Shown piece after piece: positions 9,191-14,946 of a DNA stretch of 64,000 nt. Below the pieces are notes generated by a model. That model was not told where the DNA came from. It saw only the letters and a list, made by a program, of their open reading frames with translations, and did not search any database. Origin of the DNA: Anaerolineales bacterium (GTDB lineage: Bacteria > Chloroflexota > Anaerolineae > Anaerolineales > UBA11579); the NCBI GenBank assembly GCA_020059485.1, contig JAGVCA010000004.1, forward strand, positions 1 through 64,000. Direction: 5' to 3'. The translations under genes and the position numbers were made by a program. Each line of letters begins with the position of its first letter. Within the stretch, counting starts at the first letter, position 1.

Positions 9191-10309
9191 TCAGGACCTC
9201 TGCAGGTGCTCATCCGGGGGACAGATCTCTTCGGCTGCGGCCAACATTCCCGGCGCAGCTGAAACCTCCCCGCCATAATATTTTTTCTGGAAGCGGAAGG
9301 CCACATTTACCAGGGCGATCATCACGGGGACTTCGACCAACGGGCCGATCACGGCGGCAAAGGCTGCCCCGCTGTTGATCCCGAAGACGGCCACGGCTAC
9401 CGCAATGGCCAATTCAAAGTTGTTGCTTGCGGCTGTAAAAGCCAGGGTGGTGGACTTGGAATAATCCGCCCCAATGCGGTGCCCCATCCAGAAAGAGACC
9501 AGGAACATGAGGACAAAGTAGATCAGCAGCGGGATGGCGATCCGGACCACATCCAGCGGGATCTGCACGATCAGGTCACCTTTGAGGCTGAACATGACCA
9601 CAATGGTGAACAGCAAGGCGATCAGGGTCATCGGGCTGATCCTGGGAATGAACTCTTTGTGGTACCACTCTTTGCTTTTGATGCGGATCAACACAAAGCG
9701 GGTGAGGAAACCGGCAATGAACGGGATCCCAAGATAAATGAATACCGACTGTGCGATCTCGCCGATGGTGATCTGGACCAGACTGCCTTCCAGCCCGAAC
9801 CAGGTGGGCAGAACGGTGATAAACACGTAAGCGTACACGCTGTAAAAGAGCACCTGGAAGATACTGTTAAAGGCAACCAGCCCGGCGGCGTACTCATTGT
9901 CCCCTTTTGCCAGTTCGTTCCAGACGATCACCATGGCGATGCAGCGGGCCAGTCCGATCATGATCAAACCAACCATGTATTCCGGGTAACCGCGCAGGAA
10001 GATGATCGCCAGCAGGAACATCAAAATCGGCCCGATGATCCAGTTCTGGATCAGGGAGAGGCGCAGGACCTTCCAGTTGCGGAACACCCTGCCCAAATCT
10101 TCATAATGCACCTTTGCCAGCGGCGGGTACATCATCAGGATCAGGCCGATGGCGATCGGGATATTGGTGGTACCGATTGAAACCGCGGCGTTGAAATCTT
10201 TCACTGCGGCGGGGATGAGAAAGCCAATCCCAACGCCAACCACCATAGCCAGGAAGATCCACAGCGTCAGGTAGCGGTCGAGGAAGGATAATCGTTTTTG
10301 TTTTTCCAT
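9191..10309 (-). CDS. arsB: Arsenite efflux transporter, ACR3 family
   Basis: ACR3 proteins export arsenite through the cytoplasmic membrane using the proton gradient. The 372-residue protein has about ten hydrophobic segments, and the start [19 protein letters not shown] is typical of bacterial ACR3. The conserved [19 protein letters not shown] segment holds the essential Cys and, in the next helix, the polar charged residues. [15 protein letters not shown] and [16 protein letters not shown] near the C terminus also match the family. It is the last gene of the operon, 3 nt after the first arsC, and ends at a clear terminator. The name Acr3 is more exact than ArsB, which strictly denotes an unrelated family. 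Confidence 0.95.
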
Positions 10310-10312
10310 GAG

Positions 10313-10735
10313 TTAATCCTCTTTTGCCAGGTTTCGCAGGTAACCAAGTACCCGGTTATCGATGTCATCGCGCACGTCACGGAAGACTGCCATAATCTCT
10401 TCCTCGCTGCCGGCAGCTTTGGCTGGGTCGGGGAAGCCGATATGGACGCGCTGGCCCTGCCCGAGCCAGACCGGGCAATTCTCGGCAGCGTCATCGCAGA
10501 CTGTGATGACGGAATCAAACTCTTTGGTCGGCAGGTCGTCGATGTGTTTGGATTCTCCCTCGTGCTGGATGCCGATCTCTTCCAGAGCGAGGAGGGCTTT
10601 CGGATGGACGTAGCCGGAGGGTTCGGTGCCGGCGCTGAAGGCTACCCAGCCATCTACCAGGCGTTGGTTGATGAGGGCTTCCGCCATCTGCGAACGGCAG
10701 GAGTTGCCGGTACACAGGATCAGGACCGTTTTCAT
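10313..10735 (-). CDS. arsC: Arsenate reductase ArsC, thioredoxin-coupled LMW-PTPase type (copy 1)
   Basis: This enzyme reduces arsenate to arsenite, which the pump then exports. The 140-residue protein starts with the P-loop [15 protein letters not shown] (CX5R) and has the relay pair VCDDAAENC (C-x6-C), so it should use the three-cysteine mechanism with thioredoxin as reductant. The later segment [14 protein letters not shown] fits the phosphatase-fold Asp loop. Its start overlaps the stop of the second arsC as ATGA. The two copies differ clearly: this one has Cys after NS in the P-loop where the other has Ala. Confidence 0.95.
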
Positions 10736-11169
10736 GTGTGCACCTCTTTCAGCCAGACCTGGATGCGGGTATTGATCTGGTCACGGATCTCACGGAACTT
10801 GGCCAATTTCTCTTCATCCGAGCCTTCCAGTGCGGCTGGGTCGTCAAAGTCCCAGTGGGTATGGATGCCGGATGAAAGGAAGGTGCGCGGGCAGTTTTCC
10901 TCAGCATGGCCGCACACGGTGAATAGATACTGAAAATGCGTTTTCCCGAGATATTCGCCGACATCCTTGGAACTGTGCCCTTCGAGTCTGATCCCGCTCT
11001 CGTCCATGACCTGGACCGTGAAGGGATTGATCTCTTTTGGCTCCAACCCGGCGCTGTGGACCTCGAACCGGTCTCCGGCATATTTGCGCAGGAAAGCTTC
11101 CGCCATCTGGCTCCGGGCTGAATTGCCGGTGCACAGGAAGATCACTTTCTGTTTTCTAATCTCATTCAT
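10732..11169 (-). CDS. arsC: Arsenate reductase ArsC, thioredoxin-coupled LMW-PTPase type (copy 2)
   Basis: This 145-residue relative of the adjacent arsC has the P-loop [15 protein letters not shown] and the redox pair [24 protein letters not shown] corresponds to the Asp-containing loop. AAGGAG lies 6 nt before the ATG. It is the first of the arsC-arsC-acr3 trio. The 142 nt before it contain a -10-like TAAAAT (11208-11213 on this strand) but no copy of the ATTC-N8-GAAT operator, so the trio may depend on read-through from the permease gene. Sequence divergence from copy 1 argues against a recent tandem duplication. Confidence 0.93.
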
Positions 11170-11311: not shown

Positions 11312-12814
11312 TCATATCTTGCTTTTCTCGTCGATGGAAGTGGGTTTTGGCAAATCGCTGGTATTCCGTCTGGCGCCGATGCGACCAATAATCCAGAAGA
11401 CCAGACTGACAAATCCCAGGAACATGACCAGATACAGCGCAACAAGCCCAATTGCCGTTCCGTCCACCCACGCGCCGTACAACAGCCCAGCGATCGTGCT
11501 GAAGAGTGCCACCCAGCCGACATACACCCAGGCTTTTTTACGCCCGATGATGGAGGCAGTGATCAGGATACTTTGCAGACTGAGCTCCGGATCGGAGATC
11601 AGGTAGGCCAGCAGCGGTCCGCGGTGCATGCCCAAGCCGAGGAACATTTGGGCAATCGGCACTTCCACCAGGGTGGGGAAATACATAAAGACGCCAAACA
11701 CCACGCCGACGAAATTGCCGACCAGTGTGTTTTCTCCGGCAATCGCCTGAATCCATTCTGGCCGAATCAGTTCCCGGATGATCCCAACGGCGAAAACGCC
11801 CACGATCAGCAGGGGGAAGATCTGTTTAATGAAGCGCCAGGTTTCCCAGAGGAAGTCGCGGGTTTCATCCTGGGCTAATTGGGTGGGCAGCATCCAACCG
11901 ATCAGGGCAATGCTCAGCAACACACCGATGAATTTGCCGGTAAACTGCAGGGCGACACCACCCGGGTAAGGGCTGACACCCAGGGCAGCGATCAGGAGGG
12001 TGAGGCCCACCAATCCGGTCGCGATCCAGGTCCAGGCGTTGATCCCGTCATGGATCTTTTCCAGCCCTTTCCAGGAAGCGAGGCCGATCAGGACCAGCAT
12101 CCCGATCAGGATGGCGCCCTGGGCTGTGACACCTTCTTCTCCCCGGGCGGGGTCAAACGGCACCAGGGCGAAAAGGTTTTCCTGGAACCGGTTTACCCAT
12201 TGGAGTGGAAGATCTAACTGGAAGTAGGTTGTTTTCAGCAGGTCGATCTGGAAAGTGCCGATGACCAGCAAAGCCACCAACGCCAGCAGGAAGATCACCG
12301 AAGACCGGCGCATGGAGGCCTGCCCGGCGAACATGGCGTCGGTGGCCTTGTCGTGGGCGGCATCGTCCTTGCGGAAGATCACAGCCATCAGGACACCGAC
12401 CCCGATCCCAAAAGCGAGCGAGAGGACCAGCCGGGCGATGGCCAGGTCCATCCCGATAACTGCACCGGTATAGGACAGCGCCAGGATGTTCACTGCTGGG
12501 GCGACGAACAGGAAGGTGATCGCCGGGCCAAGGCCAGCACCCTTCTTGTAGATCCCGGCAAACAGAGGGATCACGGTGCAGGAGCAGACCGCCAGCAAAA
12601 AACCTGCTGCCGCCGCGGCCGGATAGGAAATCACCTTTGGGGTGTTCCGGCCAAGAAAGCGGGTGATGGTCTCTTTGGGGATCAGTGCGGTCATGGCCCC
12701 GGCGATATAAAAAGCGGGCAGCAGGCAGAGCAGCACATGCGCGGCCAGATAGGCGGCAAGGTTACCCAACCCGCTGTTAAGCAACTGGATGATGAAATCA
12801 ATGGTTGTATTCAT
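11312..12814 (-). CDS. ArsP/YraQ-type permease (DUF318 superfamily)
   Basis: This 500-residue protein has about ten membrane helices in two repeated halves. The first half carries the signature LAVCSCTVIPLFAGIYKKGA, with a CSC motif, followed by GLGPAITFLFVAPAVNILAL. The second has VFGVFMYFPTLVEVPIAQ and MHRGPLLAYLISDPE. This family includes predicted metalloid and organoarsenical exporters (ArsP). A related type is often found with an ArsR regulator and a small redox protein, as here. A terminator hairpin and an ArsR-like operator sit directly upstream, so it probably has its own regulated promoter. The substrate is unproven. Confidence 0.85.
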   Translation of the reverse strand: MNTTIDFIIQLLNSGLGNLAAYLAAHVLLCLLPAFYIAGAMTALIPKETITRFLGRNTPKVISYPAAAAAGFLLAVCSCTVIPLFAGIYKKGAGLGPAITFLFVAPAVNILALSYTGAVIGMDLAIARLVLSLAFGIGVGVLMAVIFRKDDAAHDKATDAMFAGQASMRRSSVIFLLALVALLVIGTFQIDLLKTTYFQLDLPLQWVNRFQENLFALVPFDPARGEEGVTAQGAILIGMLVLIGLASWKGLEKIHDGINAWTWIATGLVGLTLLIAALGVSPYPGGVALQFTGKFIGVLLSIALIGWMLPTQLAQDETRDFLWETWRFIKQIFPLLIVGVFAVGIIRELIRPEWIQAIAGENTLVGNFVGVVFGVFMYFPTLVEVPIAQMFLGLGMHRGPLLAYLISDPELSLQSILITASIIGRKKAWVYVGWVALFSTIAGLLYGAWVDGTAIGLVALYLVMFLGFVSLVFWIIGRIGARRNTSDLPKPTSIDEKSKI

Positions 12815-12836
12815 ATGTGGCCAGCCTCGGTTTCAT

Positions 12837-12852
12837 ATTCATATAACTGAAT
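12837..12852 (-). promoter_or_regulatory. ArsR-type operator before the permease gene
   Basis: ATTC-ATATAACT-GAAT is an inverted repeat with an 8-nt spacer, 22 nt before the permease start. The same pattern occurs before arsR and before the radical SAM gene. ArsR proteins bind such dyads near the promoter and let go when arsenite binds. Confidence 0.65.
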
Positions 12853-12869
12853 ATGTTGTTTCGTGAAAG

Positions 12870-12888
12870 AGCCCCGATGGACGGGGCT
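12870..12888 (-). terminator. Hairpin between the thioredoxin-like and permease genes
   Basis: AGCCCC and GGGGCT form a 6-bp GC-rich stem with a 7-nt loop. Only a short CTTT follows on the minus strand, so it may be a partial terminator or a processing site rather than a full stop. Confidence 0.45.
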
Positions 12889-12900
12889 ATGGTGGTTTTG

Positions 12901-13152
12901 TTAGGCCTCGTCCAGAGCGGTGGCCAGCATGCTGACAATCTCGGATTGTGAGGGGATCTTGCCGCTGGACACTACTTTTCCATTGATCACCAAACCAGGC
13001 GTACTGAGGATGTCGAATTCCATGATCTTTTGGTAGTCGGTGACCTTTTCAAATTCGGCCTTGACGGCCAAGCTGGTAACTGCTTTTCGGGTTTCCTGTT
13101 CCAGCTTTTTGCAGTTCGGGCAGCCAGTGCCCAGGATCTTGATATTCAACAT
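12901..13152 (-). CDS. Thioredoxin-like redox-active disulfide protein
   Basis: This 83-residue protein of the small archaeal-type thioredoxin family (MTH895-like) has ILGTGCPNCKKLE with a CPNC redox pair, and the cis-Pro segment STPGLVINGKVV. The frame is open to 13302, but the start at 13152 is chosen because GGAGG lies 7 nt before it and the longer form would overlap arsR. Such proteins are commonly linked to ArsP/YraQ permeases and ArsR. It could reduce the ArsC enzymes or the CSC motif of the permease, but this is inference. Confidence 0.88.
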   Translation of the reverse strand: MLNIKILGTGCPNCKKLEQETRKAVTSLAVKAEFEKVTDYQKIMEFDILSTPGLVINGKVVSSGKIPSQSEIVSMLATALDEA

Positions 13153-13168
13153 GATTGGACCTCCAGGG

Positions 13169-13552
13169 TCAGTTTTGATTGGCATTGCTGTCTGGTTCAC
13201 ACTTTGGGCAGGCACAGTTGGATAATATTCCAGGGCCAGCCGGTTCGGGCAAGTCCTGGGTCGGGATGGACTGAATGATCGCTGCTTCTCGCAACAGATC
13301 AAAGATGGTTGGATCGGAGACCCGATAGAAGATGTATTTTCCTTCCCTGCGGGCCTCCAGAATGCCGGTATCCCGAAGCAGCATCAGGTGCTGGGAGATG
13401 TAAGCCTGCCGCTTTCTCAGAACCGCTTCCAGGTGGCAGACGCACACCTCGCCATAGCCAATGCTGTAAAGCAGCCTGATCCGAAAGGCGGAACCAAGCA
13501 GTTTGAAGAGCTGGCTGATGCGTTTGTCAATGGCGTTAATTTTCATATTCAT
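13169..13552 (-). CDS. arsR: ArsR/SmtB-family arsenite-responsive repressor
   Basis: This 127-residue winged-helix protein has the metalloid site GEVCVCHLEAVL (the CVC motif in helix 3 of arsenite sensors) and the recognition helix RQAYISQHLMLLRDTG. The tail NCACPKCE adds three more cysteines, a further possible metal-binding group. Two ATG codons, at 13552 and 13546, are possible, and the operator overlaps the first. Without ligand it should repress its own promoter and the two other genes that carry the same operator. Confidence 0.94.
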   Translation of the reverse strand: MNMKINAIDKRISQLFKLLGSAFRIRLLYSIGYGEVCVCHLEAVLRKRQAYISQHLMLLRDTGILEARREGKYIFYRVSDPTIFDLLREAAIIQSIPTQDLPEPAGPGILSNCACPKCEPDSNANQN

Positions 13553-13570
13553 AATATTGAATATATTATA
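13547..13570 (-). promoter_or_regulatory. arsR operator and -10 box
   Basis: ATTC-ATAATATT-GAAT (13547-13562) overlaps the arsR start codon and abuts TATAAT (13565-13570, minus strand). The predicted transcript start is near 13558, so the arsR message would have almost no leader. A repressor bound here would cover both the transcription and the translation start. Confidence 0.65.
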
Positions 13571-13636
13571 GGCTTGTTCTCAAGTGATGCCATGGACAGA
13601 TATCCCTTGCCTAGAGGGTCAAATGTCCCATCATTC

Positions 13637-14896
13637 TTAGGGGCACTGGATCACGCCATGCGCCCAGAGGCAGCCGCCGCAATTCGGGTGGCGGTAGCCT
13701 GTGCAGTCCAGCAAGTTATCCTCAGACAGATTGCACGTGTGGCAATCCACACATGGCGAGAAGTTTATCGCCAGCAGATCTTCCCTGAAGCGCCGATATT
13801 CCGGCGAATACCACAGATCGACAATTGAGCTTGTATTCAGATTGCCAAATGTGTGGGGCAGGCTGCGCCTGTGCCAATCCCCCAGGATGTGGGTGTGTTC
13901 ATATAAGAGGGGCAGGCAGGGGGCAAGGTTTCCATCCCAGCGCACGGCTGTGGCGCCTCGCGCCAGGAAGGGACAGAGATATGGATTACGGTTCAGGATG
14001 TTCCCGGCGACCTTGACCTGGTATCCCTGCATGAGCATGTAGATCAGGTCCTCTCCTGGCGTGCCGTCCAGGTCCATGCGGGGCAGCCAGACCCTGGGTT
14101 GGGTGCCTTCCCAGCTGCCGGAGGCGTGGGTCAGGCTTTTTTCATACAGCACCTCTGCCGCCATTCCCTGGGTATACGCCATGAGGTTGGTGACAAAGAA
14201 CTGGTTCGCGCCGAGTTGTTTGCCCAAAGCAATCACCGCGGGCAGGTCTGCCGCGTTCTTTCTCATCAGCACAAAGGCAATCCCTAACCCGGGACGGCCA
14301 GACCATGCGGATGACCCATACTTGTCTGTCCGGGCTTGATGAAAGTAGTGCAGGTTTTCGATGATCTTTGGCAGATGGTTTCCCAGGCGGACATCCTGAT
14401 AGCTCTCCGGATGGGCGCCATCGATCGAAACCCACAGCATATCGAGGCCGGACTCGATCAATGAGTGAGTCATTGCCTGTGAGAGCAGCGTGCCGTTTGT
14501 GATCAGGGAGGTGCTGGCGCCTTTTGCCCTGGCATAGCGGATCATTGGGAGGATATCCGGGTGGCTGAGGGGTTCCCCATATCCTCCGAAAAAGATCTCA
14601 GGGATGGGGGAGAATTCGGAAAGGTCTGCGATGATCTTCTGGAAACCGGGGAAGGGCATGGATCCCAGGCTGTCGTTCCAGATGGTGCGGATACAGGTGC
14701 TGCAGTCCAGGTTGCACTGGTTGGTGACTTCGATATAGATCCGGTTCAAACCGTCACTTGGGCGGCTCAGATGCAGCCGGTCTTCGTCAATCTCCACCAG
14801 AATCTTGCTGCCGGGAACCATCCGGAAGTGATCTTTCAGGCTTTGGGGGATGGCCAGATTGCCATCCTGGTCGATCTCGAGGATAAGTCTTTTCAT
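13637..14896 (-). CDS. AbrB-like/radical SAM/SPASM protein resembling tungsten-cofactor oxidoreductase maturases
   Basis: This 419-residue protein has three parts. Residues 1-47 look like an AbrB/SpoVT swapped-hairpin domain (LEIDQDGNLAIPQSLKDHF). Next is a radical SAM core whose cluster motif CNLDCSTC (CX3CX2C) lies near residues 59-66, followed by EIFFGGYGEPLSHPD. The C-terminal SPASM region has many cysteines and ends NCGGCLWAHGVIQCP, an ending I associate with tungsten-cofactor oxidoreductase maturases (TIGR04317-type). No aldehyde oxidoreductase partner is in the window. The gene is upstream of arsR on the same strand and has a matching operator. The start has no clear ribosome site. The family call is from memory of motifs, so moderate. 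Confidence 0.7.
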   Translation of the reverse strand: MKRLILEIDQDGNLAIPQSLKDHFRMVPGSKILVEIDEDRLHLSRPSDGLNRIYIEVTNQCNLDCSTCIRTIWNDSLGSMPFPGFQKIIADLSEFSPIPEIFFGGYGEPLSHPDILPMIRYARAKGASTSLITNGTLLSQAMTHSLIESGLDMLWVSIDGAHPESYQDVRLGNHLPKIIENLHYFHQARTDKYGSSAWSGRPGLGIAFVLMRKNAADLPAVIALGKQLGANQFFVTNLMAYTQGMAAEVLYEKSLTHASGSWEGTQPRVWLPRMDLDGTPGEDLIYMLMQGYQVKVAGNILNRNPYLCPFLARGATAVRWDGNLAPCLPLLYEHTHILGDWHRRSLPHTFGNLNTSSIVDLWYSPEYRRFREDLLAINFSPCVDCHTCNLSEDNLLDCTGYRHPNCGGCLWAHGVIQCP

Positions 14897-14922
14897 CTGG
14901 TTGAGGAGAGGTCAATAAAAAC

Positions 14923-14946
14923 ATTCGTTTTTTTGAATATATTATC
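14923..14946 (-). promoter_or_regulatory. ArsR-type operator and -10 box before the radical SAM gene
   Basis: ATTC-GTTTTTTT-GAAT (14923-14938) has the spacing of the arsR and permease operators. On the minus strand it is preceded by GATAAT (14941-14946). The 12 bases TAATATATTCAA are shared exactly with the arsR promoter, in the same position relative to the dyad. Confidence 0.6.

Follow-up and report, generated by a model that had tools for sequence, protein, structure and literature searches.

A single ArsR repressor probably controls three promoters through the operator ATTC-N8-GAAT in a 64,000-nucleotide stretch of DNA from an uncultured Anaerolineales bacterium (hereafter the window), and the radical SAM enzyme encoded behind one of these promoters is predicted to be a conserved accessory of the ArsR regulon. 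The position of the operators, their conservation at a fixed spacing, their placement over or close to promoters and the recurrent linkage of the genes are established. Although ars operons are well catalogued, a radical SAM/SPASM enzyme is tied to them here, in many bacteria, by both its regulation and its gene order. This opens the function of a little-understood part of a maturase family to direct testing, because the cultured Longilinea arvoryzae, Levilinea saccharolytica and Bellilinea caldifistulae carry the gene in ars clusters or beside arsC.

Three predicted operator sites in one ars cluster

The genes of the cluster, its operators and the two −10 elements read directly from the sequence are as follows.

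13637..14896, minus strand: radical SAM/SPASM enzyme, 419 aa (Pfam Radical_SAM and SPASM; nearest NCBIfam model TIGR04317, below cut-off)
13169..13552, minus strand: arsR, ArsR/SmtB repressor, 127 aa (NF033788, above cut-off)
12901..13152, minus strand: MTH895/ArsE-type thioredoxin-like protein (TIGR00412, above cut-off)
11312..12814, minus strand: ArsP_1 (DUF318-type) permease (PF03773, 244 bits)
10732..11169, minus strand: LMWP-type arsenate reductase-like protein, copy 1 (TIGR02691, E 3.8e-38, below cut-off)
10313..10735, minus strand: LMWP-type arsenate reductase-like protein, copy 2 (TIGR02691, E 3.5e-34, below cut-off)
9191..10309, minus strand: Acr3 arsenite efflux transporter (TIGR00832, 466.6 bits against a cut-off of 282.8)
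12835..12854, minus strand: permease operator, perfect dyad ATATTCA-N6-TGAATAT; core ATTCATATAACTGAAT at 12837-12852
13545..13564, minus strand: arsR operator, perfect dyad ATATTCA-N6-TGAATAT; core ATTCATAATATTGAAT at 13547-13562
14921..14940, minus strand: radical SAM operator, ACATTCG-N6-TGAATAT as read on the plus strand; core ATTCGTTTTTTTGAAT at 14923-14938
13565..13570, minus strand: −10 box TATAAT of the arsR promoter
14941..14946, minus strand: −10-like box GATAAT of the radical SAM promoter, with the same architecture in relatives

The window contains just three copies of ATTC-N8-GAAT, one each at the promoters of arsR, the permease and the radical SAM gene, all of which are read from the minus strand. 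The three cores lie exactly where the original prediction had placed them, and its claim that each is just upstream of or overlaps a start was borne out: the permease ATG (12814) is 22 nt from its site, the arsR ATG (13552) lies within its own site, which thus overlaps the start codon, and the radical SAM ATG (14896) is 26 nt away. The same is true of the stretch that the arsR and radical SAM sites were said to share with the −10 box, since TATAAT (13570-13565) and GATAAT (14946-14941) each stand two bases ahead of ATTC on the minus strand.

By themselves the window counts are weak and modest evidence, and we do not take them as proof: 1.07 sites were expected against the three found, and three or more turned up in 8 of 100 shuffles. 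Pattern searches of the genome (2.22 Mb, 70% complete) gave 18 sites, 15 of them beyond the three and several intragenic. Both the shuffles and these 15 sites speak for a reading in which AT-rich sequence produced all three dyads by chance, leaving the radical SAM gene outside ArsR control. The perfect long form, ATATTCA-N6-TGAATAT, is more informative: the genome has only two copies, at arsR and at the permease. The radical SAM site departs from the long dyad at 2 of 14 positions, is among the few two-mismatch copies in the genome and is the weakest of the three.

The genome also holds a second ArsR-type gene (L008, 146-529 on G000:C17), with ATTC-N8-GAAT (ATTCGCATTAACGAAT) ~15 bp 5' of its start and a possible membrane redox protein gene close by. 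Because this gene has a site of its own, the window ArsR is assigned as the acting repressor from proximity.

The operator in related genomes

We regard the comparison with relatives as the decisive test that the sites are real. Homologues of arsR were drawn from 396 genomes of the class, and among the 35 upstream regions examined 29 carried the exact ATTC-N8-GAAT, while the spacings N4-N7 and N9-N11 were found in none and shuffling gave a mean of 0.10 for N8. Just before or overlapping the site, a TATAAT match of at least 5/6 was present in 51 of 66 conserved arsR-upstream sites, against 15% by chance. At ten arsR promoters (L171, L172, L175, L177, L179, L180, L232, L233, L242 and L244) the site is paired, and the second copy follows at a distance of 30, 31 or 33 bp, roughly three turns of the helix.

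For the radical SAM gene we searched the region from −100 to +10 of 138 homologues. The N8 dyad was found upstream of five, the window counted, and each other spacing upstream of none or one; 1000 shuffles gave a mean of 0.23 and a maximum of 2 for N8. The other four carriers are L117 and L266, of one genus, and L250 and L261, of another family. In addition to these five, L226 has ATTCATATTGTTGAAT 49 nt upstream of its likely radical SAM ATG. The position of the dyad relative to the gene is the same in L117, L266, L250, L261 and L226, and all the dyads at radical SAM genes of relatives lie beside or over a −10-like element, in an architecture that spans four families of the order, the window's and three others. 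The permease-upstream dyad recurs in two relatives (L247 and L254). Conservation in relatives, by which the original prediction proposed that the sites be judged, was thus confirmed at all three promoters.

These results bear directly on the reading by chance. It is already contradicted at arsR, where N8 is so clearly preferred to the neighboring spacings, and at the radical SAM gene sites specific to N8 recur in other families next to a −10-like element; we therefore consider chance a very improbable explanation of the three dyads. Shared control by ArsR, the reading that we prefer, does not extend in the same form to all relatives. In many cases the radical SAM homologue lacks its own site and follows arsR or acr3, which makes the separate radical SAM promoter a lineage-specific trait. 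Matches located 113-162 nt 5' of the radical SAM gene (L091, L108 and L121) were excluded from the support. The comparison yields a precise operator for this group of ArsR proteins, which can be used in regulon prediction.

The regulator and its predicted signal

The window ArsR scores 71.5 bits with the family model NF033788, whose cut-off is 55, and has two groups of cysteines, C37-x-C39 within a CVCHL motif and a C-terminal C113-x-C115-P-x-C118. Both CxC and CxCPxC are kept in 59-60 of 61 homologues, with C37 and C39 present in 60 of the 61. The protein resembles the arsenic-type ArsR/SmtB repressors of ars operons in its winged-helix family, its CxC and the dyad over its promoter, but differs from them by the extra C-terminal CxCPxC. 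Its surroundings are likewise those of an ars operon in the clustering with acr3, arsC, a permease and a thioredoxin; they differ in that a radical SAM gene with its own promoter is predicted to be under the regulator.

A different signal must be weighed here, since the repressor may be a sulfide or persulfide sensor of the SqrR/BigR type, whose reactive-sulfur regulon happens to lie beside ars genes. The closest solved structures by sequence, 6o8k and 13ct, point in this direction, as we take both to be SqrR, an ArsR-family regulator. A match to the BigR model (53.5 bits) and the GcvH, DGC, OsmC and thioredoxin genes found in some relatives also fit a sulfide sensor. However, the BigR score falls far below the equivalog cut-off of 155, and the Cys of 6o8k that is presumably the redox Cys of SqrR aligns with a Tyr in the window protein. 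An arsenic sensor would be expected to carry CxC cysteines, as the window ArsR does, whereas the cysteines of SqrR appear to be absent from it; C37-x-C39 and CxCPxC are nearly universal in its homologues, and the genes carried with the regulator include acr3, arsC, arsA and arsD. On balance we think a sulfide sensor quite unlikely.

The operator itself is shared by the two types. ATTC-N8-GAAT is the recognition site of RcSqrR (PMC9774250), and the operators of SqrR, BigR and YgaV resemble those of the window in their identical core and spacing, as described for RcSqrR in the same work. The motif type is consequently known for ArsR-family repressors and is not specific to arsenic.

From the architecture described above, a mechanism for an arsenic-responsive ArsR can be outlined. 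ArsR-family repressors are dimers. A dimer of the window ArsR would bind ATTC-N8-GAAT on or next to the promoters of arsR, the permease and the radical SAM gene, and would block RNA polymerase at the three of them. Binding of As(III) or a similar thiophilic ligand to the CxC and the C-terminal cysteines would then cause ArsR to leave the DNA, and three units would be derepressed: the radical SAM gene, arsR with the thioredoxin gene, and the permease gene, the last possibly together with arsC-arsC-acr3 downstream of it. We infer the repression, its release by As(III) and the co-induction of the radical SAM gene with the efflux and thiol-redox genes from sequence, and arsenite is suggested as the inducer by the cysteines of the regulator and by the cargo genes. 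If the three shared promoters are released together, the radical SAM enzyme would be a conserved accessory gene of the ArsR regulon.

The radical SAM enzyme in and out of ars clusters

Relatives of the radical SAM gene were found by an alignment-based search of genome contigs; a single-sequence scan of genome contigs recovered no relatives, and none were found on viral contigs. Both arsR and the radical SAM gene are present in 58 genomes of the class, and in 14 of these no more than 6 kb separates the two, against a generous chance expectation of less than 0.71 (gene positions were compiled by hand). The order of the window, rSAM-arsR-trx-permease-arsC-acr3, is repeated in L226, which belongs to another family. 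Other arrangements are arsR-permease-trx-rSAM followed by arsC and acr3 (L097, L232 and L233), arsC-arsR-rSAM-acr3 (L249 and L230, the latter being the same as L291, from Longilinea arvoryzae) and arsR-acr3-rSAM (L245, L246, L254, L257 and L258). In the cultured strains the order is arsC-arsR-rSAM-acr3-trx-permease (Longilinea arvoryzae KOME-1), arsR-acr3-rSAM (Levilinea saccharolytica KIBI-1) and operator-rSAM-arsC (Bellilinea caldifistulae GOMI-1). Homologues linked to ars genes were also found outside the Chloroflexota, in Acidobacteriota (L315, L330 and L338) and in a Spirochaetota MAG (L331).

Because the site, the pairing of the genes and often their whole order recur in relatives, the enzyme seems to be an accessory of arsenic detoxification that has so far escaped notice. 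Taken with the dyads found across families, this linkage supports the central claim of the original prediction, namely that one ArsR operator at three promoters brings a radical SAM gene into the regulon.

The protein combines the Pfam domains PF04055 (Radical_SAM) and PF13186 (SPASM) with an AbrB/MazE-like N-terminal stretch, which was recognised in 9 of 14 aligned members. Its radical SAM motif CX3CX2C (C61-C65-C68) is invariant, as are nine other cysteines (C308, C327, C382, C385, C388, C398, C406, C409 and C418). The best model, TIGR04317 (tungsten cofactor oxidoreductase radical SAM maturase, W_rSAM_matur), gave 263.6 bits against a cut-off of 380. This cut-off fails to separate homologues linked to ars genes from those linked to aldehyde ferredoxin oxidoreductase (AOR), since the AOR-linked L167 also misses it with 297.8 bits. 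The sequence features thus identify the enzyme as a SPASM-type member of the radical SAM proteins, with the aldehyde-oxidoreductase maturases as relatives. It shares with the TIGR04317 proteins the domain plan, CX3CX2C and the C-terminal SPASM cysteines, but its gene has no AOR or MoaD gene beside it and the protein belongs to a different clade from the copies of rSAM-MoaD-AOR type. The predicted structure (pTM 0.79, mean pLDDT 72.8) matched SPASM-type and other radical SAM enzymes (BlsE, DesII, SuiB, SkfB, PqqE and anSME), and such matches to a model are unable to tell peptide from small-molecule substrates.

In a careful tree of 81 homologues the window protein fell in a clade of five, all ars-linked, with support of 98/83. 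The rSAM-MoaD-AOR copies were placed elsewhere, including L167, from the window's genus, and L154, the second copy of G050. In a larger and quicker tree the clade containing the window protein has 100% support and 40 members: 25 ars-linked homologues, 9 AOR-linked ones that form a subclade and 6 that are unlinked. The window protein has at most 46-48% identity to any homologue, and the length of its branch leaves its exact position uncertain. The best homologue (48%) is L226, whose radical SAM gene appears to start at ATGGCATCTG and is without the AbrB-like N-terminal stretch; the match in that region reads through one TAA.

The relationship to TIGR04317 suggests another explanation, that the enzyme serves in trans as maturase of the lone AOR of the genome and that its linkage to ars genes is incidental. 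It is the only such radical SAM enzyme found in the 70% complete genome, and the one AOR gene (match at C10:104527-105870; gene L366, 5751-7916 on G000:C10, 721 aa) has neither a MoaD nor a radical SAM gene adjoining. Moreover, L250 and L261 have arsR, ATTC-N8-GAAT, the radical SAM gene and an AOR gene in direct succession, an arrangement that would put an AOR under ArsR control. Against this, G050 keeps both an ars-linked copy (L097) and one linked to AOR and MoaD (L154), which belong to different clades, the AOR of the window's genome has no ATTC-N8-GAAT nearby, and a second copy may be missing from a genome of this completeness. We judge this AOR-maturase reading unlikely.

A third possibility is an enzyme that uses arsenic itself as substrate, with an organoarsenical as the product. 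Precedent exists in ArsL and ArsS, which are radical SAM enzymes of arsenic metabolism, with arsL in an ars operon (PMC8552651), and the window gene likewise lies beside efflux and reductase genes. Only three conserved cysteines are described in ArsL, in a central CX3CX2C at 194-201 (PMC8552651), so ArsL would lack a SPASM region. The window enzyme instead has its CX3CX2C near the N-terminus, at 61-68, together with the nine cysteines of the SPASM region, and in motif position it is unlike ArsL. Direct action on arsenic seems unlikely to us. Among the best 25 NCBIfam matches of the enzyme there was no model for ArsS. The existence of ArsL and ArsS also means that radical SAM proteins in arsenic metabolism are already known as a kind, and the original claim that the gene is not a standard ars gene has to be narrowed to this enzyme family (PMC8552651). 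We found no description of the family as part of ars clusters in the literature searched, most subscription journals and preprints lying outside that search.

As a first guess, which we would put at somewhat less than an even chance, the enzyme would be a maturase of the SPASM type, recruited from a lineage serving tungsten aldehyde oxidoreductases and modifying a partner protein required under arsenic. We propose, just as tentatively, that it is a new and widespread ars gene responsible for an undescribed modification of an arsenic-response protein or an arsenic compound. Control by ArsR and ATTC-N8-GAAT would then mark this gene throughout the Anaerolineae-type Chloroflexota, with ars-linked homologues also present in Acidobacteriota and, in one case, Spirochaetota. 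A small RiPP-like peptide partner was sought among ORFs of at least 25 aa near 41 homologues of the clade and none is proposed, because the small ORFs that recur are apparently shadows of known genes; conserved small neighbors of these 41 homologues gave no clue to the substrate.

Two further arrangements were observed. In L235, L236 and L348 two same-strand copies of the radical SAM family lie close together, some of them inside ars clusters. A cassette of a GcvH-like protein, two DGC-domain proteins, an OsmC-like protein, a radical SAM enzyme and a thioredoxin-like protein recurs near ArsR-type genes (L101, L102, L104, L105, L106, L108, L109, L120, L122, L147, L270 and L341). As candidate partners in the window's own genome, DGC, GcvH and OsmC fail at least for DGC, with no PF08859 in the 70% that is covered. 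In some cases ArsD and ArsA follow the cassette, and its lipoyl GcvH-like protein could be a dithiol carrier that binds arsenite.
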